Below, in pieces: positions 1,105 through 61,036 of a DNA stretch of 64,000 nucleotides (positions are counted from its first letter, which is position 1; every line of letters begins with the position of its first letter). A program made the translations under genes and the position numbers. The notes under the pieces were generated by a model, which was given only the letters and a program-made list of their open reading frames with translations, searched no databases and was not told the DNA's origin. This DNA comes from Actinomycetota bacterium (GTDB lineage: Bacteria > Actinomycetota > Geothermincolia > Geothermincolales > RBG-13-55-18): NCBI GenBank assembly GCA_013178005.1, contig JABLXL010000006.1, forward strand, positions 24,455 to 88,454. Reading direction: 5' to 3'.

Positions 1105-1118
1105 CACTAGGCATCCCT

Positions 1119-1166: not shown

Positions 1167-1205
1167 TATACTGGTGACAGTAGGTTCCTTAGGCACGAAA
1201 GCTGA

Positions 1206-1823: not shown

Positions 1824-2776
1824 TGGGCGGGTTGAACGCCAACCCGGCGGCCTCAGTACGTCAACGCCTGCTGGATCTCGCCAGGCGAAGGGGCGATGAT
1901 TTCCAGTTAGTCCTGGCACGATATGGCGCGGAACGTTTCCTCTACCGCCTTGGGCGATCCGAGTTCAAGGACCGCTTCGTCCTCAAAGGTGCCATGCTTT
2001 TCGTGGTGTGGTGGGAAGATACGTACCGCCCTACCAGGGACCTTGACCTGCTGGGCCTGGGGCGGGGCGATCCGGATACACTTGGCGGCGCCATCGCGAG
2101 GATATGCGCCGTCCCATGCCCGGAAGACGGCCTTGTCTTCGATGCGGATAACATCTCCATCGCGGCTATCCGGGAGGAGGATGAGTACGGAGGCCTTCGC
2201 GTGAAGCTCGTAGCCTATCTCGGAAAGACGCGCATCCCGCTCCAGATCGACGTCGGTTTCGGCGACAAGGTAATCCCGCGGCCTCGCCTGGAGCGTTACC
2301 CTACCCTGCTTGATCTTCCCGCGCCTCGCGTCAAGGTGTATCCGAGAGAGACCATGGTGGCCGAGAAATTCGAGGCCATGGTGAGGCTGGGCGCGGCAAA
2401 CAGTCGCATGAAGGATTTCTACGATCTGGCCGCGCTGGCGGCGAGTTATGATTTCGAAGGAAGCCTGCTGCGCGAGGCGGTAAAGGGCACTTTCGAGCGA
2501 CGCCGATCTCCCGCCGGATCGGAGACGCCCTCCGCACTGCGCTCCGCTTTCTACAGCGACCCGGGGAGGGATGGCATGTGGCGCGCTTTCCTTAGCGGCA
2601 ACGCCTTGCGCCTCGAAATGCCCGGGAGATTCGAGGAGGTAGGCGAGCTGTTGATCGCGTTTCTAAAACCCGTTTGGGAGAGCCTCGTGAGCGATGGTGA
2701 ATTGAATGCGACCTGGACAGGAGGCGGCCCCTGGAGAACGAAGAGAGACACTGACCCTGGAGGCACCGGAGAATGA
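1823..2776 (+). CDS. AbiEii/AbiGii-family nucleotidyltransferase toxin
   Basis: FVLKGAMLFVVWWEDTYRPTRDLDLLGLG motif (nucleotidyltransferase AbiEii) and RETMVAEKFEAMVRLGAANSRMKDFYDLAALA. Confidence 0.88.
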   Translation: MGGLNANPAASVRQRLLDLARRRGDDFQLVLARYGAERFLYRLGRSEFKDRFVLKGAMLFVVWWEDTYRPTRDLDLLGLGRGDPDTLGGAIARICAVPCPEDGLVFDADNISIAAIREEDEYGGLRVKLVAYLGKTRIPLQIDVGFGDKVIPRPRLERYPTLLDLPAPRVKVYPRETMVAEKFEAMVRLGAANSRMKDFYDLAALAASYDFEGSLLREAVKGTFERRRSPAGSETPSALRSAFYSDPGRDGMWRAFLSGNALRLEMPGRFEEVGELLIAFLKPVWESLVSDGELNATWTGGGPWRTKRDTDPGGTGE

Positions 2777-4182
2777 GCATGAAAGAACGGTTGGATGATA
2801 AGGGAACAAGCGGTGGAGCAAAGAGCGGCATGGCAAAGAGCCGCTTCAAGCCGTATCCGAAATACAAGGACTCCGGCATCGACTGGCTAGGCGAAATCCC
2901 GGAGCATTGGGATTTAAGGAGAATGAAATACATTTCTTGTATCCAGCCTGGAAAATCTAAACTAAGAAAGTTAGGCGATATCGAAGTAAGCTTCATCCCA
3001 ATGGAATATATTGGCGAGTTCGGTACAATCAATTCTTCGGAAACCAGACAGCTTAATGATGTTTACGAAGGTTATACATTTTTTGAGGAAGGCGACATAC
3101 TTGTAGCGAAGATAACGCCTTGTTTCGAGAACTTCAAAGGTGCCATAGCAAGGAATTTAAGAAATGGAATTGGCTTCGGAACAACGGAGTTGTATGTCAT
3201 AAGGCCATCGCCAAACGTCCACGCTGATTTTCTGGCCTATATGACATACGCCGCACATTTCAGGCAAATTGGCAAGGTGGAAATGAAAGGTACAGCAGGA
3301 CAACAACGTGTGCCGATAGAGTTCATTGAGAATTTCCCATGTGTATTACCACCTTATTCTGAGCAGAAAGAGATTTCCGATTTTCTGAAAAGGGAGACGA
3401 AGAGAATCGATGATCTAGTGAATGCAAAACAGCGCTTGATCGAGTTGTTGAAGGAGAAGCGCGCGGCCCTGATCAACCAAGCTGTGACCAAGGGCCTTGA
3501 TCCCAACGTCCCCATGAAAGACTCAGGCATCGACTGGCTGGGAGAAATACCTGAGCATTGGGATGTATCTAAACTGAAACTCCTCGCTACTGTTGTGACC
3601 AGTAATGTAGATAAAAAATCATACGAAGGAGAGCAAGAAGTCAAGCTATGCAATTACACAGATGTCTACAACTATGAATATATAACCCCGGATCTTGATT
3701 TCATGCAGGCTACCGCATCTCCAGTAGAAATAAACAAGTTCAAGCTACGTGAAGGGGATGTTCTTGTGACCAAAGATTCCGAGGATTGGCGTGATATCGC
3801 AGTGCCAGCGTTTGTGTCAGCTATGGATGACGAGGATATTCTTTGCGGCTATCACCTTGCAATACTGAGGCCGAAGCAATCGATTGTCGACGGAGAATTT
3901 CTGTTCAGATCTCTTTCATCCAGTTCAATAAATTATCAATTCAGGCTATCTGCGACCGGAATAACTCGCTACGGGTTGTCAAAATATTGGCTGGACAATT
4001 CGCTAATCCTTCGCCCACCTTTTGAAGAACAAAATGAGATAGCGGATTTTCTTAGAGAGAAAACAGAGGAAATAGAGAAATTAATTGAGAAGATAAAAAA
4101 TGGTTTAAGGAGACTCAAAGAATACCGTTCCGCGCTCATCACGGCGGCGGTGACGGGGAAAATAGACGTGCGGGGGGAATAG
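2773..4182 (+). CDS. hsdS: Type I restriction-modification specificity subunit HsdS
   Basis: Two target-recognition halves, each introduced by KDSGIDWLGEIPEHWD, and conserved helices (PPYSEQKEISDFLKRETKRIDDL...; PPFEEQNEIADFLREKTEEIEKL). Confidence 0.95.
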   Translation: MSMKERLDDKGTSGGAKSGMAKSRFKPYPKYKDSGIDWLGEIPEHWDLRRMKYISCIQPGKSKLRKLGDIEVSFIPMEYIGEFGTINSSETRQLNDVYEGYTFFEEGDILVAKITPCFENFKGAIARNLRNGIGFGTTELYVIRPSPNVHADFLAYMTYAAHFRQIGKVEMKGTAGQQRVPIEFIENFPCVLPPYSEQKEISDFLKRETKRIDDLVNAKQRLIELLKEKRAALINQAVTKGLDPNVPMKDSGIDWLGEIPEHWDVSKLKLLATVVTSNVDKKSYEGEQEVKLCNYTDVYNYEYITPDLDFMQATASPVEINKFKLREGDVLVTKDSEDWRDIAVPAFVSAMDDEDILCGYHLAILRPKQSIVDGEFLFRSLSSSSINYQFRLSATGITRYGLSKYWLDNSLILRPPFEEQNEIADFLREKTEEIEKLIEKIKNGLRRLKEYRSALITAAVTGKIDVRGE

Positions 4183-4185
4183 GGC

Positions 4186-7100
4186 ATGGCTCCGGACATA
4201 TCCGAGAGAAGCTTCGAGGAAACCATCGAAAAGGTACTCACCTCGGATCCCGAGGCGTTTTCCAATACCGCTCCCGGTGAGGTCACATCCCGTGAGCCCT
4301 ATGGAGATTGGTTGCCGGGTGGCTACCTGAAACGTAAACCGGGGGATTACGACCGCTCGCTTTGCCTTATCCCTGGCGACGTCATCGCTTTCATCTACGC
4401 CACCCAGCCCAAGGAATGGGCGAAGCTCGAACAGCACCATGGAACCGAGGTAAGGGAAAAGTTCCTCGGGCGCCTCTCGCGCGAGATAGAGAGGCGGGGA
4501 GCCCTGGACGTGCTGCGCAACGGCGTCAAGGATTCCGGGTGCAAGTTCAAGCTCGCTTTCTTCCATCCCGCGAGCGGCCTCAACGAGGAGCTGCAAAGAC
4601 TGTACGAAGCCAACATTTTCTCCGTCGTGCGCCAGCTCCAGTACAGCGACAAATCCGCCAAGAGCATCGACCTGGCGCTGTTTCTGAACGGCATCCCCAT
4701 CTTCACCGCGGAGTTGAAGAACCCCCTCACGGGACAAAACGTTGAGAATGCCGTGAGGCAGTACCGCCACGACCGTGATCCCCGAGAGCCCCTCTTCTCC
4801 TTCCGCCGCTGCCTCGCTCACTTCGCGGTAGACCCCGACCTGGTGTACGTGACCACGCGCCTGGCGGGGCTGCTGACGAGCTTTATTCCCTTCAACCAGG
4901 GTAAGTACGGAGGCGCCGGCAATCCACCCGTGCCTCCCACGCAGAGCGGCTACGCGACTTCGTATCTCTGGGAGCGCATCTGGGCAAGGGACAGCGTGCT
5001 GGAGCTGATCCAGCATTTCATCCAGGAGGTCGAGGTGGAGGACGAGGACGGTAGGAGGACCGGCGAACGCGTCCTCATCTTTCCCCGCTATCACCAGCTC
5101 GACGCCGTGCGCCGCCTGGTTCGTGACGCGCGCGAGAAGGGACCTGGCCAACACTACCTAATCCAGCACTCCGCGGGAAGCGGCAAGTCCAACACCATCG
5201 CCTGGCTTGCCCACCGGCTGTCGATACTCCACGACTCCGAGGACAGACGGGTTTTCGACTCCATCGTGGTGATCACCGATCGCAGGGTGATCGACCGCCA
5301 GTTGCAGAGCGTGGTAAAGCAGTTCGAGCAGACCTTGGGGATCGTGGAGAACATCGACAGGACCAGCCGCCAACTTAAGGAGGCGCTGGAGGGGGGCAAG
5401 ACCATCATCGTCAGCACCCTCCAGAAGTACCCGGTGATCGCCGGCAACATGCAGGAGATGCCGGGGAAGCGCTTCGCGGTGATCGTGGACGAGGCGCATT
5501 CCTCTCAGACGGGGGAGAGCGTCAAGGGCCTCAAGTCGGTGCTCGCGGTCGATAACCTTGAGGAAGCCGAGGCCGAGGACTCCGTGGAACCAGAGGACTT
5601 CCAAGACGTTGTCGCCGAGCAGGCGAGGAAGCGGGGCAGGCTTCCCAACGTGAGCTTCTTCGCCTTCACCGCCACCCCCAAGTCCAAGACCCTGGAGCTC
5701 TTCGGGACCAGGCGGCCGGACGGTAAGTTCGAGGCCTTCAGCCTCTACAGCATGCGCCAGGCCATCGAGGAGGGTTTCATACTCGACGTGCTGGAGAACT
5801 ACACCACCTACAAGACCTACTGGAAACTGCTCAAGACTATCGAGGAAGACCCCGCCTACGACCGCGGCAAGGCGACCTATATCCTTCGCTCCTTTGTCGA
5901 CCTGCACGAGCATTCCATCCGCAAGAAGGTGGAGATCATGGTGGAGCACTTCCATGACCGGGTCGCACACCGCATCGACGGCCAGGCCAAGGCTATGGTA
6001 GTCACCCGCTCTCGCTTGCACGCGGTGAGGTTCAAGCTGGCCATGGACGCCTACCTGCGCGAGAGGGGTTATCCATACCGGACCCTGGTGGCTTTCTCGG
6101 GGACGGTGAAGGACGGAGGGATGGACTACACGGAGGCGGGGATGAACGGCATCCCGGAGGCCCAGACGGCAAAGGCCTTCAAGCGGCCGGAATACCGTTT
6201 CCTCATCGTTGCCGAGAAGTTCCAGACGGGTTACGACATGCCGCTGCTCCATACCATGTACGTGGACAGGAAGCTCTCGGGGGTGCACGCGGTACAGACC
6301 CTCTCGCGCCTTAATCGCATCTATCCCCCTGCCAAGACCGAGACCATGGTGCTTGATTTCGTGAACGAGGCCGAAGATATCCGCGAGGCCTTCCAGGAAT
6401 ATTATGAAAAGACCATCCTATCTGAGGAGACCGACCCCAACCTTCTCTACGACCTGGAGCGACGCCTTGCTGAGTTCGGCGTATTCAACGGGGGCGACGT
6501 GGAGGCCTTCGCGGGTTTGTACTTCAGGAACGCGGGACAGGACCAGCTGTACGCCGCCCTTGCCCCGAGCGCGGAACGTTTCGCGGAATTGACCAAAGAG
6601 GAGAAAGCGGATTTCCGGGGGGTCCTTGACGACTATGTGCGGCTGTACGCGTTCCTTTCCCAGGTGGTTACCTTCGTGGATCCCGACCTGGAGAAGCTCT
6701 ACGTGTTCGCCCGCCTGCTTAGGCGGTACCTGCCGTACGAGCGCGAACGCCTGCCGCTGGAGATCCAGCAGGACATAGACATGGAATCCTACCGCATTAC
6801 GCGGAGGTTCGAGGGTCCGATCGTACTTGAGAGAGGGCAGGTCGAGATTCCTCCCATCGGGGCAGGTGCCTCCCGTGGCATTGCCCCGGAAGACATCGAG
6901 CCCCTGTCGGAGATCATCAGGGAATTGAACGAAAGATTCGGCACCGATTTCTCGGATGAGGACAAGGTATTCATCAGCCAACTCGAGGAGAGACTGGCGG
7001 GAGATCCCTCCCTGCGGGCCAGCGTGCGCGCCAACACCCCCGAGAACGCGCGCCTCACCTTCGACTACGTGGTCACCGACCGGTTGCAGGAGATGGTGGA

Positions 7101-7206
7101 CACGAACTTCGAGTTCTACAAGCGGGTTACCGACGACCGGGCGTTCGCGGAGTTCTTCCTCGACTGGCTTTTCGAACGTTTTCGGAAATCGCTGGAAGGT
7201 TCATAA
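4186..7206 (+). CDS. hsdR: Type I restriction endonuclease subunit R (HsdR)
   Basis: Walker A HSAGSGKSNTIAW, DEAH (VIVDEAHSSQTGE), FTATPKSKTLELFG, and a RecB-like N-terminal nuclease region (LFLNGIPIFTAELKNPLTGQN). Confidence 0.96.
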   Translation: MAPDISERSFEETIEKVLTSDPEAFSNTAPGEVTSREPYGDWLPGGYLKRKPGDYDRSLCLIPGDVIAFIYATQPKEWAKLEQHHGTEVREKFLGRLSREIERRGALDVLRNGVKDSGCKFKLAFFHPASGLNEELQRLYEANIFSVVRQLQYSDKSAKSIDLALFLNGIPIFTAELKNPLTGQNVENAVRQYRHDRDPREPLFSFRRCLAHFAVDPDLVYVTTRLAGLLTSFIPFNQGKYGGAGNPPVPPTQSGYATSYLWERIWARDSVLELIQHFIQEVEVEDEDGRRTGERVLIFPRYHQLDAVRRLVRDAREKGPGQHYLIQHSAGSGKSNTIAWLAHRLSILHDSEDRRVFDSIVVITDRRVIDRQLQSVVKQFEQTLGIVENIDRTSRQLKEALEGGKTIIVSTLQKYPVIAGNMQEMPGKRFAVIVDEAHSSQTGESVKGLKSVLAVDNLEEAEAEDSVEPEDFQDVVAEQARKRGRLPNVSFFAFTATPKSKTLELFGTRRPDGKFEAFSLYSMRQAIEEGFILDVLENYTTYKTYWKLLKTIEEDPAYDRGKATYILRSFVDLHEHSIRKKVEIMVEHFHDRVAHRIDGQAKAMVVTRSRLHAVRFKLAMDAYLRERGYPYRTLVAFSGTVKDGGMDYTEAGMNGIPEAQTAKAFKRPEYRFLIVAEKFQTGYDMPLLHTMYVDRKLSGVHAVQTLSRLNRIYPPAKTETMVLDFVNEAEDIREAFQEYYEKTILSEETDPNLLYDLERRLAEFGVFNGGDVEAFAGLYFRNAGQDQLYAALAPSAERFAELTKEEKADFRGVLDDYVRLYAFLSQVVTFVDPDLEKLYVFARLLRRYLPYERERLPLEIQQDIDMESYRITRRFEGPIVLERGQVEIPPIGAGASRGIAPEDIEPLSEIIRELNERFGTDFSDEDKVFISQLEERLAGDPSLRASVRANTPENARLTFDYVVTDRLQEMVDTNFEFYKRVTDDRAFAEFFLDWLFERFRKSLEGS

Positions 7207-19957: not shown

Positions 19958-20136
19958 GTGAGCTTCCCTGAACAGGTCCGCACGCGCGGGGCTTGCAACA
20001 ATAGTATTGCGCCTGGCTCCGGGAATATGGTGCCCGGGTTCATAAATATTGATGCTAGGCTTAGAAGCATTGTGGACGCCCGCTTGACAGGCGTGTTAGC
20101 ATGGTAACGTTCGAGATTTCTTGAAAAGAGAAAAAC

Positions 20137-20300
20137 ATGCCTGCCGGATCCCGCGAGGGATAAAAGGGAAGTCGGTGAGAGTCCGACACGGTAGCGCCGC
20201 TGTGACCGGGGAGCGAAGCCCCAATGATCCACTGGCATCGGCCGGGAAGGAGGGGCGGAGCGAGGATCCGGGAGTCAGAAGACCTATCCGGCAGGGGTCA
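20137..20300 (+). promoter_or_regulatory. Cobalamin (adenosylcobalamin) riboswitch aptamer
   Basis: AAAGGGAAGTCGGTGAGAGTCCGACACGGTAGCGCCGCTGTGACCGGGGAGC...CCACTGGCATCGGCCGGGAAGG...GGGAGTCAGAAGACCTATCCGGC. These are the conserved B12-box elements. Confidence 0.93.
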
Positions 20301-20340
20301 GCAAGCTCTCCGCATCAGAGGGAACCTGACGTGAAAGGCG

Positions 20341-20378
20341 ATCTCCACTCTCAAGGCGAGAGCGGAGATTTTATTTTC
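20341..20378 (+). terminator. Intrinsic terminator of the riboswitch expression platform
   Basis: ATCTCCACTCTC-AAGGC-GAGAGCGGAGAT stem (one mismatch) followed by TTTTATTTT, between aptamer and start codon. Confidence 0.85.
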
Positions 20379-20435
20379 CGCGGCTATGCCCTCCTGAGCG
20401 CGGTGGAGCGGAAAGCGAGCCAAAGGAGGGAAAAG

Positions 20436-23048
20436 ATGTCGGCGGGAATCAGGGGCGGCAAACAAGTCGCCAGCGAGAGGAAAGGTGTTCGTTTCGTGGC
20501 CGTGGCGGTCCTTGCCGTCGCCTTGACGCTGGCGGGATCGGGAATCCCCGCCCTGCAGCGGGCGCCGCGCGCCGAGGTCGCCATTGCGCAAGGAACGGAA
20601 CCGGTTTTCGAGAGCGCCGATTACCGTATCAAGGACGGCACAGGACCGCGCATCGTGGATGGCGTGGCGTACCTCTTCGCCGGGAACGACCCCTGGATGC
20701 CGCCCGGGGAAAACAGCAGCGTGGTGGCCCTTGACGCCAGGGACGGTACGCTGCTCTGGCAGAAGGAGCTGGAGTGGGCGGGCGGCATGGGATCGAAGGC
20801 GCGCCCCCTCTACGACGAGGGCCGCATCTACATCGGCTGCGGAAAGAGCGTCTACTGCCTGGACGCCGCAAACAACGGCAACGTATTGTGGGCGAAGGAC
20901 ATCACCCCCGCGGACGCGTCCATGGGGAACTCGGTGATCATTGCCGACGTGGTTACGTATTCCAACGCCGCGGGCACCAAGGTGGTGGTGGTGGGGGATT
21001 ACATCTATGGCAAGTACCTGGGGCTCAACGCGGATACCGGTGCCGTGCTGTGGAGCTTCGACCTCGATGCCGGTTCCTCGGCCATCGGGGCGCCAGGGGT
21101 GGACGATACCGGAAATCGCCTCTATCTTCCCCAGCACGCTTCCTTCGGCAGCCCGGTGAACGGGAAGATATTCTGCCTCGACGTGTCGGTGGCCACGCCT
21201 GCCAAGAAATGGGAACTCAAGGCTGATTACGACGTGGCCGGATCCGTTGCCCTGGACGGCGCGAACCTCTACTTCAGCGACTTCGCCTATGGCGGACCCA
21301 TGGGCAACCTCTACCGTGTCGAGGACAAGGGAAGCGAGGCCGTTCTGGCCTGGAAACAGCCCATCTGGGGTTCGTCAGGCACCCCACTCGTCGACACCAA
21401 CAGCGGCACCCTCTATGTCTGCGGCAACGATTACTCCGTGGGAGGGAACCATTTCTACGCCTTCGACCTGGACACGGGCGGGCTGGTCTGGGATAACCCC
21501 AACTGGGGCGCTTATAACGGAAACTGCGTGCTCTCCCCCACCACGGGTTATTTGTACGCGGGGAGCTTCGACACTGGCGCCTGGGCGCACAACAAGGGCA
21601 TGGGGGCAATGGAAGCTTACACGGGCAGCGAGCTGTGGTACGTGCAGCAGAAGGGCGGGGGGGACCCCGTGGTCGCCGGCGGACTGGTCTATACCACCGC
21701 CGACGGCCGCCTCTACGCCTACGAGGAGTATAAACCCACCTCCTACGACTGGTACTTCGCCGAGGGTTATACCGGAGAGGGCTTCGAGGAATGGCTGTGC
21801 CTGGCCAATCCGGGCGACGCTCCCGAGGACGATGCCACGGTGAACGTCACCTACCTCTTCAACGGCGAAAGAGACCCCGAGACGCTTGTGTATGGGGTGA
21901 ATGCGGGCACCCGTGTCACCATCGATGTCAAGGGCGCCGTCGGGAAGGATGCGGAGGTCTCCATCAAGGTGGTTTCCGACAAGCCCTTGGTCGCGGAGCG
22001 CCCCGTTTATTTCCGGTACACCGGAACGGGCAACCATGCGTGGACGGGCGGACACTGCGTGGTGGGGGCGGACGATCCCCTGACCGACTGGTACTTCGCC
22101 GAGGGTTATACAGGAGAGGGCTTCGAGGAGTGGCTGTGCCTGGCCAACTTCGGAGACAGCCTGGCCACGGTGAAGGTCGCCTACATATACCAGGAGGGAG
22201 AACCACTGGAGAAGGAATACTACGTGCCGGGAAACCGCCGCGTGACCTTCAGCGTCAACTCGGAGGCAGGGGAGGGGCGAGATGTCTCCATAGCCGTGGA
22301 GAGCAACCGCCCGGTGGTGGCGGAGCGCCCCATGTACTTCTCCTACCAGGGCATGGGATCCCATGGCTGGACGGGAGGCCACTGCGTGATCGGCGCGGCG
22401 GGAGCCGGCACTAGCTGGTACTTCGCCGAGGGTTATACAGGAGAGGGCTTCGAGGAATGGCTATGCCTTGCTAACCCCGGTGATGAGGACGCGCTGGTGG
22501 AAGTCACCTACCTCTACCAGGATGGAGAACCGGAGACCAAGGAATACGGCGTGCCCGCGCATACCCGCCGTACCCTGAGCGTCAACCTGGAGGCGGGTGC
22601 GGGCAGGGAGCTGGGCCTGGCGGTGAAGTCCACGCGGCCCGTGCTGGCCGAGCGCCCCATCTATTTCAACTACAGGGGCGCCTGGGACGGAGGCTCCTGC
22701 GTCATCGGGGCCGCCATTCCCGGCAACTACTGGTGCCTCGCGGAGGGATACACCGATGTCCATTTCGACCAGTACGTTTGCGTATCCAATCCCGGCAAGG
22801 AGGACGCGACGGTGGTGGTGACGCCACTGTTCGGAGACGGCGAGGCGGAGGAATACGCGGTCTCCGCCGGCCGCCGCTTCACCCTGACGCTATCAAGCGC
22901 AGAGCCCACAGAGCGCGCCTACGCTATAACCTCGGACCGGGGCGTGGTGGTGGAAAGGGCAATGTATTTCGACTACCAGGGCCTGGGCGCGCACGGCTGG
23001 AAGGGCGGACACTGCACCAGGGGAGCAACCCTGAGCGATATCTACTAA
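20436..23048 (+). CDS. Secreted PQQ-like beta-propeller protein with four C-terminal ~105-aa WYFAEGYTGEGFEEWLCLANPGD repeats
   Basis: RBS GGAGGG then ATG (MSAGIRGGK...). Signal-peptide-like segment, propeller repeats (VVALDARDGTLLWQKELEW, LGLNADTGAVLWSFDLDAG), then four repeats. The longer ORF 5' end (20121) lies inside the riboswitch. Confidence 0.85.
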   Translation: MSAGIRGGKQVASERKGVRFVAVAVLAVALTLAGSGIPALQRAPRAEVAIAQGTEPVFESADYRIKDGTGPRIVDGVAYLFAGNDPWMPPGENSSVVALDARDGTLLWQKELEWAGGMGSKARPLYDEGRIYIGCGKSVYCLDAANNGNVLWAKDITPADASMGNSVIIADVVTYSNAAGTKVVVVGDYIYGKYLGLNADTGAVLWSFDLDAGSSAIGAPGVDDTGNRLYLPQHASFGSPVNGKIFCLDVSVATPAKKWELKADYDVAGSVALDGANLYFSDFAYGGPMGNLYRVEDKGSEAVLAWKQPIWGSSGTPLVDTNSGTLYVCGNDYSVGGNHFYAFDLDTGGLVWDNPNWGAYNGNCVLSPTTGYLYAGSFDTGAWAHNKGMGAMEAYTGSELWYVQQKGGGDPVVAGGLVYTTADGRLYAYEEYKPTSYDWYFAEGYTGEGFEEWLCLANPGDAPEDDATVNVTYLFNGERDPETLVYGVNAGTRVTIDVKGAVGKDAEVSIKVVSDKPLVAERPVYFRYTGTGNHAWTGGHCVVGADDPLTDWYFAEGYTGEGFEEWLCLANFGDSLATVKVAYIYQEGEPLEKEYYVPGNRRVTFSVNSEAGEGRDVSIAVESNRPVVAERPMYFSYQGMGSHGWTGGHCVIGAAGAGTSWYFAEGYTGEGFEEWLCLANPGDEDALVEVTYLYQDGEPETKEYGVPAHTRRTLSVNLEAGAGRELGLAVKSTRPVLAERPIYFNYRGAWDGGSCVIGAAIPGNYWCLAEGYTDVHFDQYVCVSNPGKEDATVVVTPLFGDGEAEEYAVSAGRRFTLTLSSAEPTERAYAITSDRGVVVERAMYFDYQGLGAHGWKGGHCTRGATLSDIY

Positions 23049-43378: not shown

Positions 43379-43454
43379 GGGCCCATAGCTCAGTCGGCAG
43401 AGCAGCGGACTCATAATCCGCGTGTCGTAGGTTCGAGTCCTACTGGGCCCACCA
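43379..43454 (+). tRNA. tRNA with CAU anticodon (tRNA-Met, or Ile-CAU), CCA encoded
   Basis: GGGCCCA acceptor pairs with TGGGCCC-ACCA; TAGCTCAGTCGGCAGAGCA D-arm; GCGGA-CTCATAA-TCCGC anticodon arm; GTAGGTTCGAGTCCTAC T-arm. Confidence 0.95.
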
Positions 43455-43576
43455 GTAAAAGGCCAGGTCAGAGGTATAATACCGAAGACCTGGTTTGTAT
43501 ATTAATGGTAAAATAATGGGATAATGTGGTAAATGCCCCACCTATGCCCTGTCCCTCATAATACAATCATCATTAC

Positions 43577-44803
43577 TCAAGGGGTCTTCTTGTATACTTG
43601 CGTCGATGAGATTAGTGCCTCTAGCCCAAAAATATGACGCTCAACAGCTGATTGAAAGAGGTGCCCATAAGTATCGAAAGTAACATTAATGCTGCAATGC
43701 CCCATTAATGATTGAAGCGTCTTCGGGTCGGTTCCCGCTTCGATAGACAGGCTGGCAAATGTGTGGCGAAGGGACTGAAAATCGACCTTTCTAATCCCTG
43801 CCCTTTGGAGTGCATTAGCTAGAGTGCGCTGGGTTAGATTATTGGAGTTCAAATGTTTCCCATTCTTGCTAGTGAACACAAGGTCGTCAGGCTTAGTTTC
43901 CTTTGACTTAGCTTTATGCTCTTTTAACAGCTCAACTAGAACAGGCGGAATAGGCACTATCCTTTTACCCTTTTCTGTCTTTGGGGTGCCCTCACGATGT
44001 TTTGGGTCGTATGTCTTCCTTACATAAATTGTGCCGCTAACGATGTCTATATCCCCCCACGTCAGCGCTATTATTTCCCCTTGCCGTAGACCTGCGAAAC
44101 AAGCTGTACCGAAGAGTGCTTTCTCGCTTGGGCTTGAACACGCCTCCAATAAACGATTTACTTCAGAAATGTTCAAGTAATCATGCTCGCGCCTCTCTTG
44201 CCTGGGGGCCCTTACGCCTAAGGTTGGGTCCATGTGAATGAACTGTCTTATGCTGGGATGACGTAATATTGCCCGTAAAACCCTAATAATCTTTGCCCGC
44301 GTCGAGGCGCTTAGGAAATGCTTCTCCCCCGGCTTTGAAGCTTTAAGAGACTCCCGCTCCGAAAGATATATTTTGAACTCCTCTACATCTTGAGGTGTGA
44401 TATAGCTAATTCGAATCTTACCAAAATAAGGTATTAAATAATTCTCGATTATCTGCGCGTAATCATCGTAGGTATTAGGTTTTATTTCTTCACGTTTGTA
44501 TATGAGAAAATCGTGGCAGACTTTGTCAAAAGGAGGTGCTTCCCAAGGGAGAGAACGCCCCATAGTGAGCGCTTCCTTAATCTCATCCCTTAAAGCCTCT
44601 GCATCCTTTATCAATTTACCGGCAGAACGTTCATGCCATTTACCATTGCGGTCCTTCCAGCGTACGACGAAACGGTCGGCAGGGATATGAGTATCGCCGC
44701 GCTCTTTAGCTCTCTCTTTCTTGGGTTTATTTCTGTTGTAAATCCTCACGTGTGGTCGCACAGCCTCAATCCTTTTTCTCCCGTTTGAGCTTCTCGTAAT
44801 CAT
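43577..44803 (-). CDS. Tyrosine-type site-specific integrase
   Basis: GTACFAGLRQGEIIALTWGDIDI; FQSLRHTFASLSIEAGTDPKTLQSLMGHCSINVTFDTYGHL (R-HxxR-Y pattern). Confidence 0.96.
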   Translation of the reverse strand: MITRSSNGRKRIEAVRPHVRIYNRNKPKKERAKERGDTHIPADRFVVRWKDRNGKWHERSAGKLIKDAEALRDEIKEALTMGRSLPWEAPPFDKVCHDFLIYKREEIKPNTYDDYAQIIENYLIPYFGKIRISYITPQDVEEFKIYLSERESLKASKPGEKHFLSASTRAKIIRVLRAILRHPSIRQFIHMDPTLGVRAPRQERREHDYLNISEVNRLLEACSSPSEKALFGTACFAGLRQGEIIALTWGDIDIVSGTIYVRKTYDPKHREGTPKTEKGKRIVPIPPVLVELLKEHKAKSKETKPDDLVFTSKNGKHLNSNNLTQRTLANALQRAGIRKVDFQSLRHTFASLSIEAGTDPKTLQSLMGHCSINVTFDTYGHLFQSAVERHIFGLEALISSTQVYKKTP

Positions 44804-47079: not shown

Positions 47080-48496
47080 AGTCCCCGGTAGTGGTGTATA
47101 AACCAAAAACCCTCTAGCAAAGCAAGGACCACCGTGCCATCCTTTCCTCAAAGGAGTAACTGAGAGACAAAGGAGAAGCACGATGGTCAACCCTACTATG
47201 GACCTTATGGAGTGGTTGCGCAAGCAGCTGGAGGAGGCGGATACGGACCTGCTGAGGGAGATGATGAGGCTGATGGCGGGCATGCTCATGGATGCTGAAG
47301 TAGCCGCCATCTGCGGGGCGGAGTACAGGGAGAGATCGGAGGAGCGCGTGAACTCGCGCAACGGACACCGGATGAGGCCCTGGGACACGCGGGTGGGAAG
47401 TATCGATCTGCCCATACCCAAGCTCAGGGAGGGCAGCTACTTTCCCGCCTGGCTGCTGGAGCCACGCCGGCGGGCGGAGCAGGCGCTTATGAACGTGGTG
47501 GCTGACTCCTGGCTGGCCGGCGTCTCCACCCGCCGGGTGGACAAGCTGATAAAGACCCTGGGGATCGAGGGCATATCCAAGTCCCAGGTATCCCGCATGG
47601 CCAAGGCCTTGGACGAGATGGTGGCCTCCTTCCGCTCTCGCCCCCTTGATGCCGGGCCCTATACCTACCTCTGGCTCGATGCGCTCACCCAGAAGGTGCG
47701 CGAGGGCGGCAGGGTGATGAATGTATCCTGCGTCATCGCCATTGCGGTCAACGCGGACGGGCACCGCGAGGTGTGTGGGGTAGACCTCATAACCACAGAG
47801 GACGGCGCGGGCTGGACGGCGTTCCTCAGGGGTCTGGTGGCCCGCGGGCTCTCCGGGGTGTCTTTGGTCATCTCCGACGCCCACTCCGGTCTGGTCGACG
47901 CCATCGCCGCTTGCCTGCCGGGAGCTGTCTGGCAGAGATGCCGCACCCACTTCGCCCGCAACCTCCTTTGCAAGGTCCCCAAGGCCTCCCAGGACTTAGT
48001 CGCCACCTGCGTGCGCACCATCTTCGCCCAGCCGGACGATAAGAGCGTGTATGCTCAGCACCAGGCGGTGGTGGAGCAGCTGGAGGCACGCTTCCCGGAG
48101 GCGGCGGAGATGCTCGCGGAGGCCCGCGACGACATCCTGGCCTTCGCCTCCTACCCCAAGGCGCACTGGCGGCAGATCTGGTCCAACAACCCACTGGAGC
48201 GGCTCAACCGCGAGGTGCGCAGGCGCACCGACGTGGTGGGTATATTCCCCAACCGGGCGTCGGTGATGCGCCTGGTCGGGGCCGTCCTGGCCGAGCAGCA
48301 CGACGAGTGGATGGTCTGCCGCAGGTACATGAGCCTGGAATCGCTTGCCAAAGCCAGGATGAAGAAGCTCGACGGGAACGCTATCGAGACAGCAGAGAAG
48401 GAGGTGAAAGAGCTCGTGCCGGCAGCCGTCTAGGCTGTCATCATGAGGGGGATGGTATGATGGTGCTTAATACACCACTTGACGGGACTTGGCCGT
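47075..48496 (+). mobile_element. IS256-family-type insertion sequence, 8-bp target duplication TATCCCGT (47067-47074 / 48497-48504)
   Basis: Ends carry an imperfect inverted repeat (AGTCCCCGGTAGTGGTGTAT / AGTCCCGTCAAGTGGTGTAT), encode one transposase and are flanked by identical 8-mers. Confidence 0.92.
47183..48433 (+). CDS. IS256-family (Mutator-type) transposase
   Basis: AAICGAEYRERSEERVNSRNGHRMRPWDTRVGSIDLPIPKLREGSYFP; GVSLVISDAHSGLVDAIAACLPGAVWQRCRTHFARNLL; NNPLERLNREVRRRTDVVGIFPN. Confidence 0.97.
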   Translation: MVNPTMDLMEWLRKQLEEADTDLLREMMRLMAGMLMDAEVAAICGAEYRERSEERVNSRNGHRMRPWDTRVGSIDLPIPKLREGSYFPAWLLEPRRRAEQALMNVVADSWLAGVSTRRVDKLIKTLGIEGISKSQVSRMAKALDEMVASFRSRPLDAGPYTYLWLDALTQKVREGGRVMNVSCVIAIAVNADGHREVCGVDLITTEDGAGWTAFLRGLVARGLSGVSLVISDAHSGLVDAIAACLPGAVWQRCRTHFARNLLCKVPKASQDLVATCVRTIFAQPDDKSVYAQHQAVVEQLEARFPEAAEMLAEARDDILAFASYPKAHWRQIWSNNPLERLNREVRRRTDVVGIFPNRASVMRLVGAVLAEQHDEWMVCRRYMSLESLAKARMKKLDGNAIETAEKEVKELVPAAV

Positions 48497-51215
48497 TATC
48501 CCGTCCCTGTTGTTCGCAATTGCCGAACGTGGTGACATCAAGACCTTCGTAGCGAAGCCCGCACTTGACCTCATCAACCATGACTATAAATACCAAGCGG
48601 TTAAGGGCGAATCTGAGCCCTTATGGGGCACTGACGCTATCTATGAGGCAACCGACCACGTTTACCTCGCAGAGGGCATTTTCGACGCTCTCACGCTGCG
48701 TCAGGCCGGTCTGGCGGCCATGTCGCTGCAGGGCACCGATAACGCAAAGCGAGCGGCAAGGCTACTTGCAGAGATTAACAAGAGGTTCAGTATGCCGAGC
48801 ATTGAGGTGTTACTGGACGGAGATTCCGCGGGAGAGAAAGCCACAGAAGTATTTATATTGACCGCAATCTCTATGGGGCTAACGGGACGTGTAGTCAGGC
48901 TCGATTGGGAGCAGCATTCGGGGGAAACGCACTACGAGGATATCAACGAACTCTTTGTAGGGACGGGTTGCTCACCTGAAGAGCTTAAACGGATAGTAGT
49001 CGATTCTGCAAGGATTTCGGATGAAGAATTCTTGCTGGATATTCTGAGAGACAAACGAAGAAGCCTTAAGAACCTTCTGGCAGAGTATATGCCTTCAAAG
49101 GGGGAGGCAGCCGCCAAATGGCGCCATGCCTGTAAAAAGGCAAGGGGAATAAACCAGAAGGAATTCGAAGAAGAAATACGACAAGCTGAGCAAATCTGCA
49201 ACTTAAGGGAGCCAGTTGTAAAGTCGACAGAAGTTGGGTCAGATTTTTATGACCATGAATTGTCTACCTGTGATTTCTTGCCGTATATAGCAGATGCGCC
49301 AGAAAGCTGCCCTGCCTTGGGGGTATTTATGAGCAGCGATAGACAAGGCGAAGTTCAGCGCTTCTATTCCTTTCCAATTATGGGAGAAAGAATCCTTGGA
49401 GAGGGTAACGAGAAAGTTAAGGCATGTAAGCTTTTAATTGTGACTAGTGATAGGAGCTGTATGTATTATGAGACCCCCCAAGCGCTTTACGAACGCCTGG
49501 GAATTCTCTTTCCCGCAGATGTTCCGCAGTGGTTGAGAAACCAACCGTGGGATAATCGTTGGAGCCGGGAACATATGAAGGACTTTATGCGGGGAGCCGA
49601 TTGGAGCCCCAAGGAGGTATACGAAAAGCTATGCGATAAAATCCGGGAATTGCTGGACCTGGGAAGCATTGCTACAGAGAGCATAGTAGCCCTCTGGATT
49701 ATGGCCACCTATTTCTTTGACATATTTGACGCCTTCCCGTATCTATACGTGTCAGGAGAGATGGGCTCAGGGAAAACGAGGTTGCTCGAGCTACTTGCAC
49801 AAGTATCCTTTAACGGCAATATGCTATCCGGGACAACGGTTGCCGAAGCGGCGCGCAAGATAGACATTGGTCGCGTGACTTTTATCCTTGATGAGGCAGA
49901 AATGCTTGGGGGAGCGAAAAGGGGCGGGGAGGAACGGTATCAAGACCTACGCTTAATATTGCAGGCCGGCTATAAAGCGGGTTCTACCATCGGGAGAGCC
50001 GTCAAGGACAAGGATAAGTGGGACGGGTCTACTGTCGAGTACAATGTATATTCTCCCAAAGCGTTTGCATGTATCGTGCCGCCACACAGGGTACTGCGGT
50101 CAAGGTGTATCGAAATAGCCATGTTGAAAACAGGAAACCGAGACATCAGCAAGAGGCCAATCGACAGCGAAGCTGAAATATGGGAAGAAATCCGGTCGGG
50201 GTGTTATACGATTGGCCTGGGCTATATCAAGCAAGCCATGGAATTGCTGGCAGATAAGGAGAATAAGCTTGTCTATCCTGACTATCTTTCAAACAGGGAG
50301 CAAGAGCTGTGGCTTCCCATTTTGTTGATGGCGAATCTAATAGACCCTAATGGGACAGAGGAAGGGCTGTACGACGAAATCGTTGCGGAGATTAAAAAGA
50401 GACCCCCTAGCTCAAGGGTAGCGGAATACATAGAGAATATTGCCATTGCGCTACAAGCATATGGTGCTATAAACAAAGCCAGTGTCTTCAGAAAGACTAT
50501 TCCAGAAGTTGTTGAAATTGTGAAGGATTTCTTTGGGGGAGAGGAAGAGCAAGCTGAATGGCGTCAAGGTAAGGATGATAATTGGAGACCAACGAAGATT
50601 GATGAAAAAAAAGTATCGACGTTCATAAGGCGGTTTCATATCCCACAAGCGGAAAAGGTTAAAGGAGAATACAAATATAAGTTTAGGGTAAGCGAGCTGG
50701 AACACATTGTCACAGTCTATATAAAGGGGCTTACGGGGGTTGAGGGACAAGATGAAAAGCTTGGAAAGATGGAGAAGATGGTCGAGGCCAGTCATTTGTA
50801 TGACTTCGTGGACGACCCTGATTTTTGTGTCTTGTCGAAAGAAAAATGGAGTAGTACTGAAGAAATCGCAAGGGCTATGCGCCTTTTCTGGAACACAAAG
50901 GCTGAAAGCAATTGGTACTGGGACGAGGAGGAGTTCGGTCCTGCACCCTGGGGCAGCATAAATGACAAGACGCTAAGGACACTCGGGAAGATGGTCTCAC
51001 ATATAAAGGACAATTTGGATATAGAGGCAAAGCGAAATTGGGTTGAAGGAAAGATAGTCCACGGATGGCAGGGCATTTATGTTGAACCTGCGATTTTGAG
51101 AGAATGGGAGGAGAGTGGTAGGAGCGAAAACGAAGCAGATGCTGACAGCGCCAAAGCCGGTATCGACGGGCTTCTTAGGGAAGACGAAAACGTGATAGTT
51201 GCACTCGATGCCTGA
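48489..51215 (+). pseudogene. 3' part of the primase-helicase gene: Toprim-like and superfamily 3-like ATPase region
   Basis: VYLAEGIFDALTLRQAGLAAMSLQGTDNAKRAARLL (Toprim); YLYVSGEMGSGKTRLLELLAQVSFNGN (Walker A); TFILDEAEML. The predicted start is created by IS end sequence. Confidence 0.88.
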
Positions 51216-52569: not shown

Positions 52570-52696
52570 GCCCGACATCGCCCAGCGAGGCGCAAGGGTT
52601 CCAGCGCAGCCCGGCATCGCCCAGCGAGGCGCGAGGGTCCCACCACAGCCCGAAATCGCCCAGCGGGGCAGCCGCCGCGTTTCGCAGCCCGCAATC
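52570..52696. repeat. 39-bp tandem repeat, three units plus partial fourth (GCCCGRCATCGCCCAGCGAGGCGC...)
   Basis: Units begin at 52570, 52609, 52648 and 52687 (period exactly 39). Confidence 0.85.
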
Positions 52697-54295: not shown

Positions 54296-54634
54296 ATGCC
54301 TTACTACACGACTTGGGGACCGCATTACGGGTGCTGTGGGCATCTACACCGTACGATGGAAGCTGCCTACGACTGCCTGTTCAAAAACCCCAACGATTTG
54401 CCGCGAAAGCGCCGCTTTGGCCGGCAGATTCGGGAGGTGGCCTCCAGAAAGGAGCTGCAGGACTTCGACCCCGAGCTTGGCCCGGGCAAGAGGGTTTCCT
54501 TAAGCCTGGAAGTCACGCCGATAACAACCATCAGGCGGGAGAATCTCGGAAAGGTGAGAAAGGAAAAGCCCGGGAAGCTGCGCTACGCCGCCACCGGGCA
54601 CTTGGTGTTCCCCGAGCGAGACAAGGAGAGCTAA
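54296..54634 (+). CDS. Hypothetical protein
   Basis: Strong RBS AAAAAGGAGGAAACGAAATG; MPYYTTWGPHYGCCGHLHRTMEAAYDCLFKNPNDLPRKRRFG. Confidence 0.6.
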   Translation: MPYYTTWGPHYGCCGHLHRTMEAAYDCLFKNPNDLPRKRRFGRQIREVASRKELQDFDPELGPGKRVSLSLEVTPITTIRRENLGKVRKEKPGKLRYAATGHLVFPERDKES

Positions 54635-57021
54635 GGAGCATACCCCACCACGTCGTGCCCGCCGTCCCAGCCGTTCCAGGAAAAGTACATGGGCCTCTCC
54701 GCCACGATTCCCGGCCCGGACAAGACCCTCAGGCGCGCCGAGAGCTGGTATCCCGCCCCGGCGTGGTCGTTGACCCATAGCGTCACCCGCGTCCCGGCAG
54801 GGACGGCCTCCGTCCTTGCGGGGAGCTGCCCGGCCTCCTGGGTGAGGTAGGTTATCTCCACCACGGCGTCCTCGTCCCCCGGGTTCTGCAGGCAGAGCCA
54901 CTCGTGGAAGCCTTCCCCGGTGTAGCCCTCGGCGAACAGCCATTCGCCTCCCGCCGAGCCAGTCCCGATGACGCAGTGCCCGCCCGTCCAGTCGGCTCCG
55001 TAACCCGTGTAGCGGAAGTACATCGGCCTCTCGGCCAGGAACAGGTCGGCGCAGGACAGCTTCACCGAGACGTCTTTCTCCGTGCCCACCTCTTCGGGTA
55101 CGAACACCGTGCGCCTCTTGCCGGCCCCCACCTCATACGATTTCTCTACGGGCTCCCCCTGGCCAGGCCCGAGCTGGTAGGTGGCCTTCACGGTGATGGC
55201 CTCACCGCCCGGGTTCTGCAGGGTGAGCCATTCCTCGAAACCCCCTCTCGTCGTCCCTTCTGCGAAGCAATACTCCGTTGCTAGCTCGTTCAAGCCCATC
55301 ACGCAGTGCCCGCCGGTCCAGTGCCAATCGCCCCGGCCGGCGTAGTCGAAGTACATCGGTCTCTCGACCACCACTGGCTGGTCGGATAGCAGTTTAAGGG
55401 AATTCTGATACCCCGTCCCGAGCACGTCGTTCACCCGGAAGGTAGCCCGTGACTGCGCCGGCACAGACAAGCCCGCCTTCACGACCTCTCCCGCCTCCTC
55501 GGTCTGGAAGCGGAAGGTGAGGTTGGCGACAGTCGCCCCGGGGTTGAGCACGCAGACGTACTGCTCGAAGCCCGCGCCCGTGTACCCCTCTGCGAAGTAC
55601 CACGTGTCATCGGGAGCCCTCGCCCCCATGGTGTCGTGGCCCCCCGTCCAGGCCCCGTTGTAGGCGAAGTACATCGGCCTCTCCGCCACGATGGGCGAAT
55701 CCGAGCAGACCCGGGCCGAGACCTCCCTGTCTGGCCCCGCGCTTGCGTTCACGTTAACCGTGGCCCTCGATGAGCCCGGTATCGTCAACTCCTCGAGCTT
55801 CCAGGTGCCGTCCTTGCTCAGGTAGAGCACCTGCGCCCTCGCCTCAGCTTCTCCCGGGTTGCCGAGGGTGAGGTACTCCTGAAAACCGTAACCCGTGTAC
55901 CCCTCGGCGAAGTACCAAGCCGTGTCGTAGCCCTCTGGGGGCTGGGGGATGGGGCCGCTGTACCATGCGTAAGGGTCGAAATACGGCTCCCCCGGGTCGG
56001 TGTTGTCCCCGTCGCCGTTCTTATCGCCCGGCACGTAGCCGTGCAGCACGGTGCGGAAAGTGGCCTCGGGGTCGCCCGCCCAGGCGGCGCTACGCCATAT
56101 CGCACCGTTGGTAGTTCCCGGCCGCTTGTTCTTGCGGTAGCGCATCCCGGCCCCGCCCATGTAGGGGTGTGGCCCCTCCAATAGCGTCGCCCCGCTGGAG
56201 CTGTAGTCGGGCACCGCCAGCTGCCCTATGGGCGTGTTGGGGTTGTGCGCCAGCGTGTCCAGGAAACTGGCGGCCGAGGAGAATGGCTTGGCCACGTATG
56301 TCCCCGCCCCAGGGCGCTCCTGGTGCAGGAAGGTGTAGGAATACTCGTTTATCCTGCGCAGGATTTCGGCGTCGGATAGTATCGGCGTGTCTGGGTCGAT
56401 ACTGCTCATCCCGGCGCTGTAGCACGCGCCCACCAGAAGCACCATCGCGTCCTCGTCCAGCTTGACCGGGTACTCGGTGCCGTTGCGGTCCCTCCACGGG
56501 GCGTAGTTCCTGGTGGGGTCGCCCCAGATTTTGCGGCCCTCGCACACGTTGTAGGCGTCAATGGGGTAGCGGTAGTCGTCGTAATGGTCCATGTAGGTCC
56601 CAGCATTGCCTACGACCATGCCCCAGTACTCGTTCCCGTGCCCGTAGTAGACCACCAGGTTGTAGGTGTTGAGCCGGAACATCTCGGCCAGGGTCCAATG
56701 CGTCCATGGGATGGGTTCGGTGTAGTCGGGAGCCGCGGTGTCTTCGTAGCGGTCCACGATGAAGCCCAGCTCGGAGAGCTTGGCCGCGGCCGCGTCGTCG
56801 TCCACGCCGTACTGCGCGCCTGCGGCGCCCAGGCAGTCGATTATGAGCGCCCGGGGCATCCAGGCCGGCTGGGGAGGGGCGGCGTGCGCCACGCCGGGCC
56901 GCGCAAGCCCCGCAAGCCCCGCCGGGCCCATCCCCACCCCCAGGGCCGCTCCAAGCACGAGCAGGCCCGCCAGGGCCAGGCCAACAATCCTATGCCCACC
57001 GATTCCTCGTCTCGTCCTCAT
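54631..57021 (-). CDS. Large secreted protein: N-terminal caspase-like (clan CD peptidase-like) domain plus four WYFAEGYTG repeats
   Basis: Signal peptide; NLVVYYGHGNEYWG and AMVLLVGACYSAGMSS (His...Cys arrangement); repeats WYFAEGYTGYGFQEYLTLGNPGEA, WYFAEGYTGAGFEQYVCVLNPGA, YCFAEGTTRGGFEEWLTLQNPGG, WLFAEGYTGEGFHEWLCLQNPGD. Confidence 0.75.
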   Translation of the reverse strand: MRTRRGIGGHRIVGLALAGLLVLGAALGVGMGPAGLAGLARPGVAHAAPPQPAWMPRALIIDCLGAAGAQYGVDDDAAAAKLSELGFIVDRYEDTAAPDYTEPIPWTHWTLAEMFRLNTYNLVVYYGHGNEYWGMVVGNAGTYMDHYDDYRYPIDAYNVCEGRKIWGDPTRNYAPWRDRNGTEYPVKLDEDAMVLLVGACYSAGMSSIDPDTPILSDAEILRRINEYSYTFLHQERPGAGTYVAKPFSSAASFLDTLAHNPNTPIGQLAVPDYSSSGATLLEGPHPYMGGAGMRYRKNKRPGTTNGAIWRSAAWAGDPEATFRTVLHGYVPGDKNGDGDNTDPGEPYFDPYAWYSGPIPQPPEGYDTAWYFAEGYTGYGFQEYLTLGNPGEAEARAQVLYLSKDGTWKLEELTIPGSSRATVNVNASAGPDREVSARVCSDSPIVAERPMYFAYNGAWTGGHDTMGARAPDDTWYFAEGYTGAGFEQYVCVLNPGATVANLTFRFQTEEAGEVVKAGLSVPAQSRATFRVNDVLGTGYQNSLKLLSDQPVVVERPMYFDYAGRGDWHWTGGHCVMGLNELATEYCFAEGTTRGGFEEWLTLQNPGGEAITVKATYQLGPGQGEPVEKSYEVGAGKRRTVFVPEEVGTEKDVSVKLSCADLFLAERPMYFRYTGYGADWTGGHCVIGTGSAGGEWLFAEGYTGEGFHEWLCLQNPGDEDAVVEITYLTQEAGQLPARTEAVPAGTRVTLWVNDHAGAGYQLSARLRVLSGPGIVAERPMYFSWNGWDGGHDVVGYAP

Positions 57022-57165
57022 CGAGCATCACCTCGCCGCTTCAACGGGCCATGCCGGGATACGCCTATTTCGCCCCGCCCTGCCCGACGGGGCGTGCCGC
57101 CAATGCCGCTCTCCTTGGGCCGCCGGGGCACCACCCCGGCGGCCGCGGCATCGCCAGCACTAGCG

Positions 57166-58857
57166 CTATTTATATGTATAATCCCCGGAGGAGTGCATCC
57201 CGCACCACTTGCCCTTGTAGTTGAATATCATGATGCGCTCGACGCCGCTCGAATACGCCTCCAGGGACAGCTCGGCGTTGGGGAAGTCCTTGTTCACGTG
57301 CCACATATAGGTGTACCAGCAGCCCTGGAAGCCGGCGGCCTGGAGCTCCTTGGTGGTGGCGCTGCGCCACACGGGCTCCCCGCCGCCCGGGAAGTAGACG
57401 TGCGCGCCGTGCCAGTTCCCCGTCGTCCCCTCCGCCACGCTTTCCTCCCACCACTTCTGCCACTGGCCGGAGTCGTCGAAGTAGTTGAGCGCCATCCAGG
57501 TGTCGAAGCCGGGGCCGGTGTACCCCTCGGCGTAAACGGCAGACGAGGAAGAAAACCCCCCGATGACCGTCCCCCCGGAGGGGGTTTGTCCCGTCGCCGC
57601 CGGGCGGTCGAACTCCATGTACAGCGGCCTCTCCACCAGGATGTTGTAGGGATAACCGTCCACCCAGTCTACCTTGAAGGCCCCGGGGTCGCGGGAGGAG
57701 GAGATGCCGTACTCGGCCAGCAGCTCGGGGTAGTAGAAGGTGCTGCGCTGCTGGGGCGGGAGCCACTTGATGAAGGCCATGAGGCCGCCGGGGGTGGAGA
57801 AGGTGAGCTTTATCGGCACCTTCTCGGTGTTGGGGTTCTGGAAGCAGACCCAGGTATCGGCCCAGCCCATGCCCGGGACGTAGGACACTGGCGCGAAGGC
57901 AAAAGCCTTGTCATAGTCCCGGTACATCACGCTGTCCAGCTTCTCCCTAGACGACCCCGGGAAGATGTGGCCGCCGTACCAGGCGCGCCCCGGCCGCTGG
58001 GGGTTGACGCTCCGGTACTGGAAGTACATGGCCCGCTCGGGGTAGATGGGGACCTCCGCGACCAGCTCCAGCGAGACGTCCTTGTTCAGCCCCACGTGGT
58101 CGGGCACGTACCACGTGCCCCGGTGCCGGGCGGGGAGGGTGCCTTTTTTCACCACCAGGCCCTCCCCCTCAATCATGTAGTTGAAGGTGAGGGCGGTCGG
58201 CTGGTCGGTGGGGTTGAGCACGCATATCCACTCGTCGAAGTGCCGTTCGGAGTCCTGGCGCGTGGTCCCCTCGGCGAAGTACCAGGTATTATGCGCCCCC
58301 TTATGGCAGGGGTTGTCGGGGTCAAAAAGGCTGGGGTCAATGCCCCACACGGCCCTGCCGACATGTCCCCCCTGCCAGGGCACGTGCCCGCCCCGGCCTA
58401 CATAGCTGAAGTACATGGGGCGCTCGATTATCACGTCGCTAGCGTAGAGGTTGCTCGTAACCCGGCATACGAAAGACACGTCGTAGCCCGGGCCTATCTC
58501 GGCGTTGACGTCGATGGTGGTGCGGGACTGCATGGGGAGGTCATAGGTCTTCTCCGCCACCACCCCCTCGTTGGTGACGTAGGAGACCTCCAGCTTCCAC
58601 CAGGGGTTTGGCGGCTGGGGCCTAGTCTCGCCGGGCATAAGCTGGCCGTCGCCGATATTGGCCACCGTGAGCCAGGTCTCGAAACCGTCGCGGGTGCATC
58701 CCTCGGCCAGGTGATAGACATTTTCGCTAATGTACTCCGACGCCGCGCCGGCCTCGCCGGGCTGCGCCAGCGCCGAAGGCAGCGCCCCGCCCGCAAAGGC
58801 CGCCAGGAGCAGCGCCGCTCCCACCACCGCCAAGAGCCTCTTCGCCATGCCACGCAT
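57166..58857 (-). CDS. Secreted multi-repeat protein of the same (F/L)AEG(Y/C)T repeat family
   Basis: Signal peptide (MAKRLLAVVGAALLLAAFAGGALPSALA); YHLAEGCTRDGFETWLTVANIGD, WYFAEGTTRQDSERHFDEWICVLNPTD, VYAEGYTGPGFDTWMALNYFDD, and IIERPMYFSYVGRGGHVPWQGGH. Confidence 0.78.
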   Translation of the reverse strand: MRGMAKRLLAVVGAALLLAAFAGGALPSALAQPGEAGAASEYISENVYHLAEGCTRDGFETWLTVANIGDGQLMPGETRPQPPNPWWKLEVSYVTNEGVVAEKTYDLPMQSRTTIDVNAEIGPGYDVSFVCRVTSNLYASDVIIERPMYFSYVGRGGHVPWQGGHVGRAVWGIDPSLFDPDNPCHKGAHNTWYFAEGTTRQDSERHFDEWICVLNPTDQPTALTFNYMIEGEGLVVKKGTLPARHRGTWYVPDHVGLNKDVSLELVAEVPIYPERAMYFQYRSVNPQRPGRAWYGGHIFPGSSREKLDSVMYRDYDKAFAFAPVSYVPGMGWADTWVCFQNPNTEKVPIKLTFSTPGGLMAFIKWLPPQQRSTFYYPELLAEYGISSSRDPGAFKVDWVDGYPYNILVERPLYMEFDRPAATGQTPSGGTVIGGFSSSSAVYAEGYTGPGFDTWMALNYFDDSGQWQKWWEESVAEGTTGNWHGAHVYFPGGGEPVWRSATTKELQAAGFQGCWYTYMWHVNKDFPNAELSLEAYSSGVERIMIFNYKGKWCGMHSSGDYTYK

Positions 58858-59125
58858 CGCAGTCCTCCTCTTGTGTCAACGTCGGGCACACGAAATACCG
58901 CGTCACTTCAAAGCCCAATGCCCCTAAATAAATATTCGGATATCCACATCGGCCGCTTGAGGTAAAACAGCCGGTTCTTGGTGGCTGAATAATGCTTTTC
59001 GCTGAATCAATGGCGAGGGAGAATTCCTCGTTACAATACATGTGAGGAAGTGATTAGGGGTAGGCTGGGTTGAAGTTGCCGCCTACGAGACTGCAGCGGG
59101 CCGTGCTGGTGGAGGAGGGGAGCCG

Positions 59126-60430: not shown

Positions 60431-61036
60431 CTATGTGGCTACAGGTCAAATATGTAGCCATTTCTGCTTCTAAGGCGATAACCCCACCGGCGGGAGGGGA
60501 TTGTTGCGACAAGGCGTGTGGGAGCTCGTGCGGAAAGGGCACCACAAGACCAATTCAGTGTTACTTGTTGCCATATTTAGCAAAAAAAGACCAGCAAGAA
60601 GACATAACGAGTGGCGCTGCTTTCTAATATACCCCCCGGAGTATATTGAACGGATTTTCGCGTATAACGCTACCATCAACGTCGAAGGTTTCTGGTGAAT
60701 CGCGTATCCTGACACCCTGCCATATTCGATTTACGAAAGGATTAAGAGCCAAGAGAGATGGTGCGTCACGTCATGCTGCGCGCTTCATTGATGAGCTCTT
60801 CCCGTGGGCCGTAACCCGTCCCCCATCCCCGCGGCGCTCGCCGCTCAAGGCGGCAACAGGGCCCTTGCCGACCATAAGCCAGTACCACAAGGGAACGCCT
60901 CGCTGGGCGCCGCCGGGCAGGGCCACGCGTTGCGGGGCAATGCTGGGGCAGGATAGGATGTGCCCGGCATCGCCCAGGAGCTGTCGTCGCAGGGCTGTAG
61001 GATTATGATTTCCAGTATGGTTAATCAGAGGGGACA

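Follow-up and report, generated by a model that had tools for sequence, protein, structure and literature searches.

Peptidases of clan CD, among them the C14 caspases and metacaspases (PF00656), the C25 gingipains (PF01364) and families C11 and C13, have their catalytic His at the end of strand 3 and their catalytic Cys at the end of strand 4 (PMC4357240). The ASRAH superfamily was described by De Souza, Iyer and Aravind (2009; PMC2739507), who united ASRT with actinobacterial secreted proteins as beta-sandwich domains, whose hallmarks are an aromatic residue where strand 1 begins and an Asn where strand 2 ends. Sugar binding by ASRAH domains is a prediction, founding members included, and the architectures reported comprise tetrads, on secreted amidases only, and dyads in actinobacterial lipoproteins (PMC2739507).

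The stretch of actinobacterial DNA analyzed here (64,000 nt, hereafter the window) encodes on its minus strand a predicted exported protein of 796 aa (54631-57021), delineated by open reading frame, Pfam matches and alignment of relatives, which joins a caspase-like N-terminal domain to a C-terminal ASRAH tetrad. New in this combination is an unclassified clan CD-like domain carried on an expanded, class-wide ASRAH modular surface-protein system.

Layout of the 796-aa protein and its neighbors

The first 47 residues (56881-57021, minus strand) constitute a signal-peptide-type N-terminus, judged by eye from the sequence without a predictor, with a basic start, a long hydrophobic core and the cleavage-type motif AHA↓A; this agrees with the earlier note, which had described the protein as secreted. 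The N-terminal domain spans about residues 48-345, and its caspase-like core (residues 56-330; 56032-56856, minus strand) was delimited from relatives, models and profile comparison. Within the core, NLVVYYGHGNEYWG (residues 121-134; 56620-56661, minus strand) comprises predicted strand 3 and the catalytic-type His128 (codon 56638-56640) in the context YYGHG, while AMVLLVGACYSAGM (residues 192-205; 56407-56448, minus strand) comprises predicted strand 4 and the catalytic-type Cys200 (codon 56422-56424) in the context VGACYSAGM. Both motifs lie where the earlier note had read a clan CD-type arrangement of His and Cys.

An acidic loop, GDxNxDGDNxDxGEP, invariant in the alignment of relatives, joins the N-terminal domain to the repeats (55984-56031, minus strand) and may be a calcium-binding loop, given its resemblance to those of the dockerin/EF-hand type. 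Four ASRAH/DUF5719 repeats follow on the same strand, beginning near residues 369, 474, 584 and 694 and located from Pfam matches and repeat starts at 55609-55923, 55279-55608, 54949-55278 and 54634-54948, the last extending to the C-terminus. They match DUF5719 (PF18986) with 66.2 bits against a cut-off of 26.2 and ASRT (PF07100) with 25.5 bits against a cut-off of 25, and all four show the superfamily hallmarks, strand 1 opening with W, W, Y and W, respectively, and strand 2 closing with the Asn of NPG.

Upstream, across a gap of 144 bp and on the same strand, lies a gene for a 563-aa protein with a signal peptide and about three ASRAH-type repeats (57166-58857). A 793-aa open reading frame on the strand opposite both genes (56584-58965) was rejected as a spurious artefact of GC-rich coding sequence, because all relatives match the minus strand. 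Elsewhere in the window, near ECF/B12 genes, a chromosomal 975-aa protein (20121-23048, plus strand) combines a PQQ propeller with four copies of the same repeat; the shared repeat and its fusion to the N-terminal domain, both pointed out in the earlier note, were thus recovered.

Relationship of the N-terminal domain to clan CD

Relatives of the N-terminal domain were found in 8 of the 31 genomes of the class, the source genome counted. All come from one bacterial family, in which the named records are Candidatus Solincola. The source genome contains a second copy, on contig C22, which is 47% identical to that in the window and represents the type common to the relatives' genomes. No relatives were found in viral contigs, plasmids or phages, searches of PDB sequences with the domain and with its alignment gave chance matches only, and an NCBIfam scan gave no match.

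In an alignment of nine sequences, His128 is invariant in all eight that cover its position and Cys200 in all nine, the latter being the sole invariant cysteine of the domain. All full-length relatives show the His-Gly...Cys pattern, and the two copies without it (L017 and L021) represent a single truncated sequence. When the domain was shuffled 20,000 times, a loose regular expression for this pattern matched 47 of the shuffled sequences; among 64 N-terminal modules taken from repeat proteins it matched just two, those of the 796-aa protein and of its own-genome paralog, and the pattern is above chance. The spacing between His and Cys is 57 in the orthologs and 72 in the window protein, and the residues at the Cys differ, RHTC in the orthologs versus GAC here.

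The AlphaFold model of the window protein is of low confidence (pLDDT 44, pTM 0.50), and in it strands E76-80 and E147-151, in model numbering, fall at the His and Cys motifs. In the model of an ortholog, which reached moderate confidence (pLDDT 60.7, pTM 0.67), the elements follow the order beta1-alpha-beta2-alpha-beta3(67-74)-His75...beta4(120-130)-Cys132. As modeled, the C-terminal ends of strands 3 and 4 bear the His and the Cys, respectively, consistent with the clan CD arrangement, and this placement and the conservation in relatives support the His-Cys signature suggested earlier. Along the chain, the order of elements is compatible with a caspase/haemoglobinase core (sheet 2-1-3-4, helices 1-3), and the Foldseek matches mix caspases and flavodoxin-like folds. 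For the window model the top match was procaspase-1 (E 5.8e-3, probability 0.90); with the ortholog model, probabilities were 0.98 for caspase-11 and procaspase-1 and 0.96 for a SAVED-CHAT protease, and NQO-type flavodoxin-like reductases also stood among the top matches. No structure match of either model reached E 0.001. The comparison with clan CD folds proposed in the earlier note gave caspases among the best matches, and neither of the refuting results named there, a non-caspase fold or a His far from the Cys as judged by strand assignment, emerged from these models of low to moderate confidence.

The position of NQO-type flavodoxin folds high in the ortholog list raises the alternative of an alpha/beta domain of flavodoxin-like or another Rossmann type that carries the HG and AC motifs by coincidence. 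To tell the two folds apart, the family profile of the N-terminal domain was aligned to profiles for C14 and FMN_red that were derived from sequences of the same phylum. Local scores slightly favored FMN_red (25.1 versus 22.4 for C14) and by themselves did not separate the folds; however, the FMN_red match was confined to a generic beta1-alpha1-beta2 segment, whereas precisely the Cys motif and the His motif gave the two strongest matches to C14. The global score was two-fold higher for C14, at 29.6 against shuffles of 3.2 ± 2.3 (maximum 10.1), than for FMN_red, at 13.6 against a shuffled mean near 3.2 (SD 2.0). An exported FMN protein would also be unexpected, and we regard a flavodoxin-like domain as improbable.

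Comparison with the CHAT profile (PF12770) gave a score of 0.02, below shuffles, and the source genome contains no PF12770 match; a single C25 sequence, which as one sequence has little power, showed no similarity. Pfam scans of the domain gave no peptidase family at its cut-off, and no Pfam family claims it. PF00656 had no match at its cut-off in the source genome or in these scans, leaving a distant profile similarity to C14, and the best peptidase match was PF01364 in one ortholog, at 11.4 bits against a cut-off of 23 (E 0.18), with none in the source genome. The N-terminal domain is very probably clan CD-like, nearest to C14 by profile and outside every named clan CD family tested.

The class-wide tetrad and the integrative element

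The source genome contains 133 segments matching the repeat, and the 430-residue tetrad is strongly matched in 26 of 30 genomes of the class. In the 67 tetrad proteins retrieved, a median of 2 residues follows the last repeat, and the N-terminal part ranges from 42 to 1016 residues; these proteins were chosen by their match to the 430-aa tetrad, so the count of four repeats is partly built in. Modules preceding the tetrads include WD40-like propellers (13 of 63) and TIG domains (11 of 63), as well as GH39, GH10, GH42, GH5, GH123, subtilase S8, purple acid phosphatase/metallophosphatase, SpoIID and beta-helix domains. On account of these numbers and of the variety of modules, the exported proteins of the lineage use the repeat as a general C-terminal module, and it is no mark of the 54631-57021 locus. 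The "adhesive repeats" of the earlier note are accordingly real as repeats, but they are predicted sugar binders in a standard class-wide tetrad, with nothing special at this locus.

The gene lies within a genuine integrative element, as the earlier note had supposed. The integration target is a tRNA-Met (43379-43454, plus strand), adjoined by the tyrosine integrase of the element (43577-44803, minus strand). The 49-bp attL core (43407-43455, plus strand) runs from the anticodon arm to just beyond the 3' end of the tRNA gene and has an identical copy at C80:5745-5793 (L033), oriented as expected for the right end of the element. This copy is probably the right end itself, on a separate contig. 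The 54631-57021 gene is located about 11 kb inward of the left end, and the GC content of the cargo region is 64-66%, versus 45-60% for neighboring element genes.

In a relative of the same genus (G002), a different integrase sits at this tRNA-Met and the 10 kb read there contain no ASRAH cargo, which indicates that this site is probably an integration hotspot with variable cargo; in another relative (G005), a fragment of an integrase lies close to the syntenic locus. In the relatives read for an empty-site comparison a similar hairpin follows the tRNA; the G002 site is occupied, so that it offers no empty site. Within its own family the tetrad of the 796-aa protein lacks a close ortholog; with weak support (SH-aLRT 81; FastTree branches 0.23-0.91), it groups with tetrads from the other families in the class and not with the clades of its own. 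This grouping and the GC content would fit a horizontal arrival of the gene, without proving it.

Other features of the window were read from the nucleotide sequence. A Mutator-family transposase gene (47183-48433) directly precedes a primase-like open reading frame that starts with TTG (48489-51215), and this insertion sequence may have split the primase gene. Three head-to-tail 39-nt repeats (52570-52686) have a counterpart in inverted orientation within the element, at 60896-60923. At the beginning of the window (64-7206), genes for apparent methylase, specificity and helicase subunits resemble a type I restriction-modification cluster, which also encloses a nucleotidyltransferase-like gene.

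Proposed function and comparison with known systems

The 54631-57021 product is, on balance, probably an exported, surface-held cysteine peptidase-like protein, held on glycan by its ASRAH tetrad and cutting peptide bonds by its His128/Cys200 dyad. As far as knowledge of such families can be extended to it, the protein would be exported via its signal peptide and then held by the tetrad on cell-wall or extracellular glycan, where the caspase/gingipain-like domain would cleave peptide bonds near the surface and could possibly also cut its own chain. It would be one of a class-wide exported set with differing N-terminal modules and the same C-terminal tetrad, its copy in the window having arrived as cargo of the tRNA-Met-targeted element. 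A displayed hydrolase is the natural reading, because sibling tetrad proteins bear hydrolase-type modules.

Many sibling modules are non-enzymatic (propellers, TIG/IPT, beta-helix), and the variable surroundings of the Cys likewise agree with a caspase-like fold that serves as an inactive binding or structural module, the whole protein being an adhesin or matrix component. We consider this unlikely, since the invariance of the catalytic-type Cys, as the only such cysteine, and of His128 wherever that position was sequenced is hard to explain without chemistry there. The linkage of a clan CD-like domain to a C-terminal beta-sandwich tail common to many exported proteins could also suggest a maturase or sortase that cleaves or attaches the tetrad proteins of the class; PorU, of family C25, is a precedent for such processing of type IX CTD proteins. 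A general role of this kind was rejected, however, and the reading as a whole is very unlikely: the N-terminal domain, confined to 8 of 31 genomes versus 26 of 30 for the tetrad, is absent from most tetrad-bearing genomes and therefore is no general processing enzyme. Least credible is an element-borne defence protein or contact-dependent effector, the function to which the earlier note had inclined. Carriage on an integrative element and the SAVED-CHAT defence protease among the structure matches speak for it, but PADLOC matches neither cargo protein, the 796-aa protein is exported, the profile comparison with CHAT shows no similarity, and related genomes hold an ordinary ortholog whose flanks, where read, contain no visible integrase or phage-like gene.

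Going beyond the peptidase-like reading of the single protein, we tentatively propose that the ASRAH tetrad is a new class-wide surface-attachment tail, comparable to SLH domains or the type IX CTD, for dozens of enzymes and propellers, and that the caspase-like domain is a new clan CD family that is presented on such tails and disseminated by an integrative element. If so, the caspase/gingipain clan would gain an unclassified family, and a large modular exported-protein system would be exposed in deep-branching, uncultured actinobacteria. Of the two, the tail system may hold the greater interest. The ASRAH domain has so far been assigned to sugar binding by computation only, and the many natural tetrad fusions make the role of the tail directly testable.

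Overall, the N-terminal domain shares with clan CD peptidases the order of strands and helices, a His-Gly after strand 3, a Cys after strand 4 and a conserved dyad, and it resembles C14, its best profile match, and C25, its best sub-threshold Pfam match. As in gingipains, the exported protein has beta-sandwich domains attached to a domain of clan CD type. It differs in falling below all clan CD Pfam cut-offs, in its restriction to one family of the class, in its fusion to ASRAH domains and in a His-Cys spacing longer, in the orthologs and in the window protein alike, than in the clan CD enzymes reviewed (PMC4357240).

The repeats belong with the ASRAH superfamily (ASRT, DUF5719 and the amidase-linked Chloroflexi tetrads) by Pfam cut-offs, by the aromatic and Asn hallmarks and by the presence of a tetrad on an exported enzyme-like protein; unlike in the 2009 description, tetrads here are C-terminal tails on dozens of unrelated modules across the class. 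With PorU and the type IX secretion CTD proteins, which include clan CD peptidases, they have in common that many exported proteins end in one kind of beta-sandwich tail, whereas ASRAH is another domain family in another phylum and forms a tetrad rather than a single CTD, with no sign of tail cleavage or of a machinery of its own. The element has the tyrosine integrase by tRNA-Met, the 49-bp duplication of the tRNA end and the primase and replication-relaxation-like genes of tRNA-targeted integrative elements, and is distinguished from them by the position of its right end on another contig and by the lack of identified conjugation genes in the part read.
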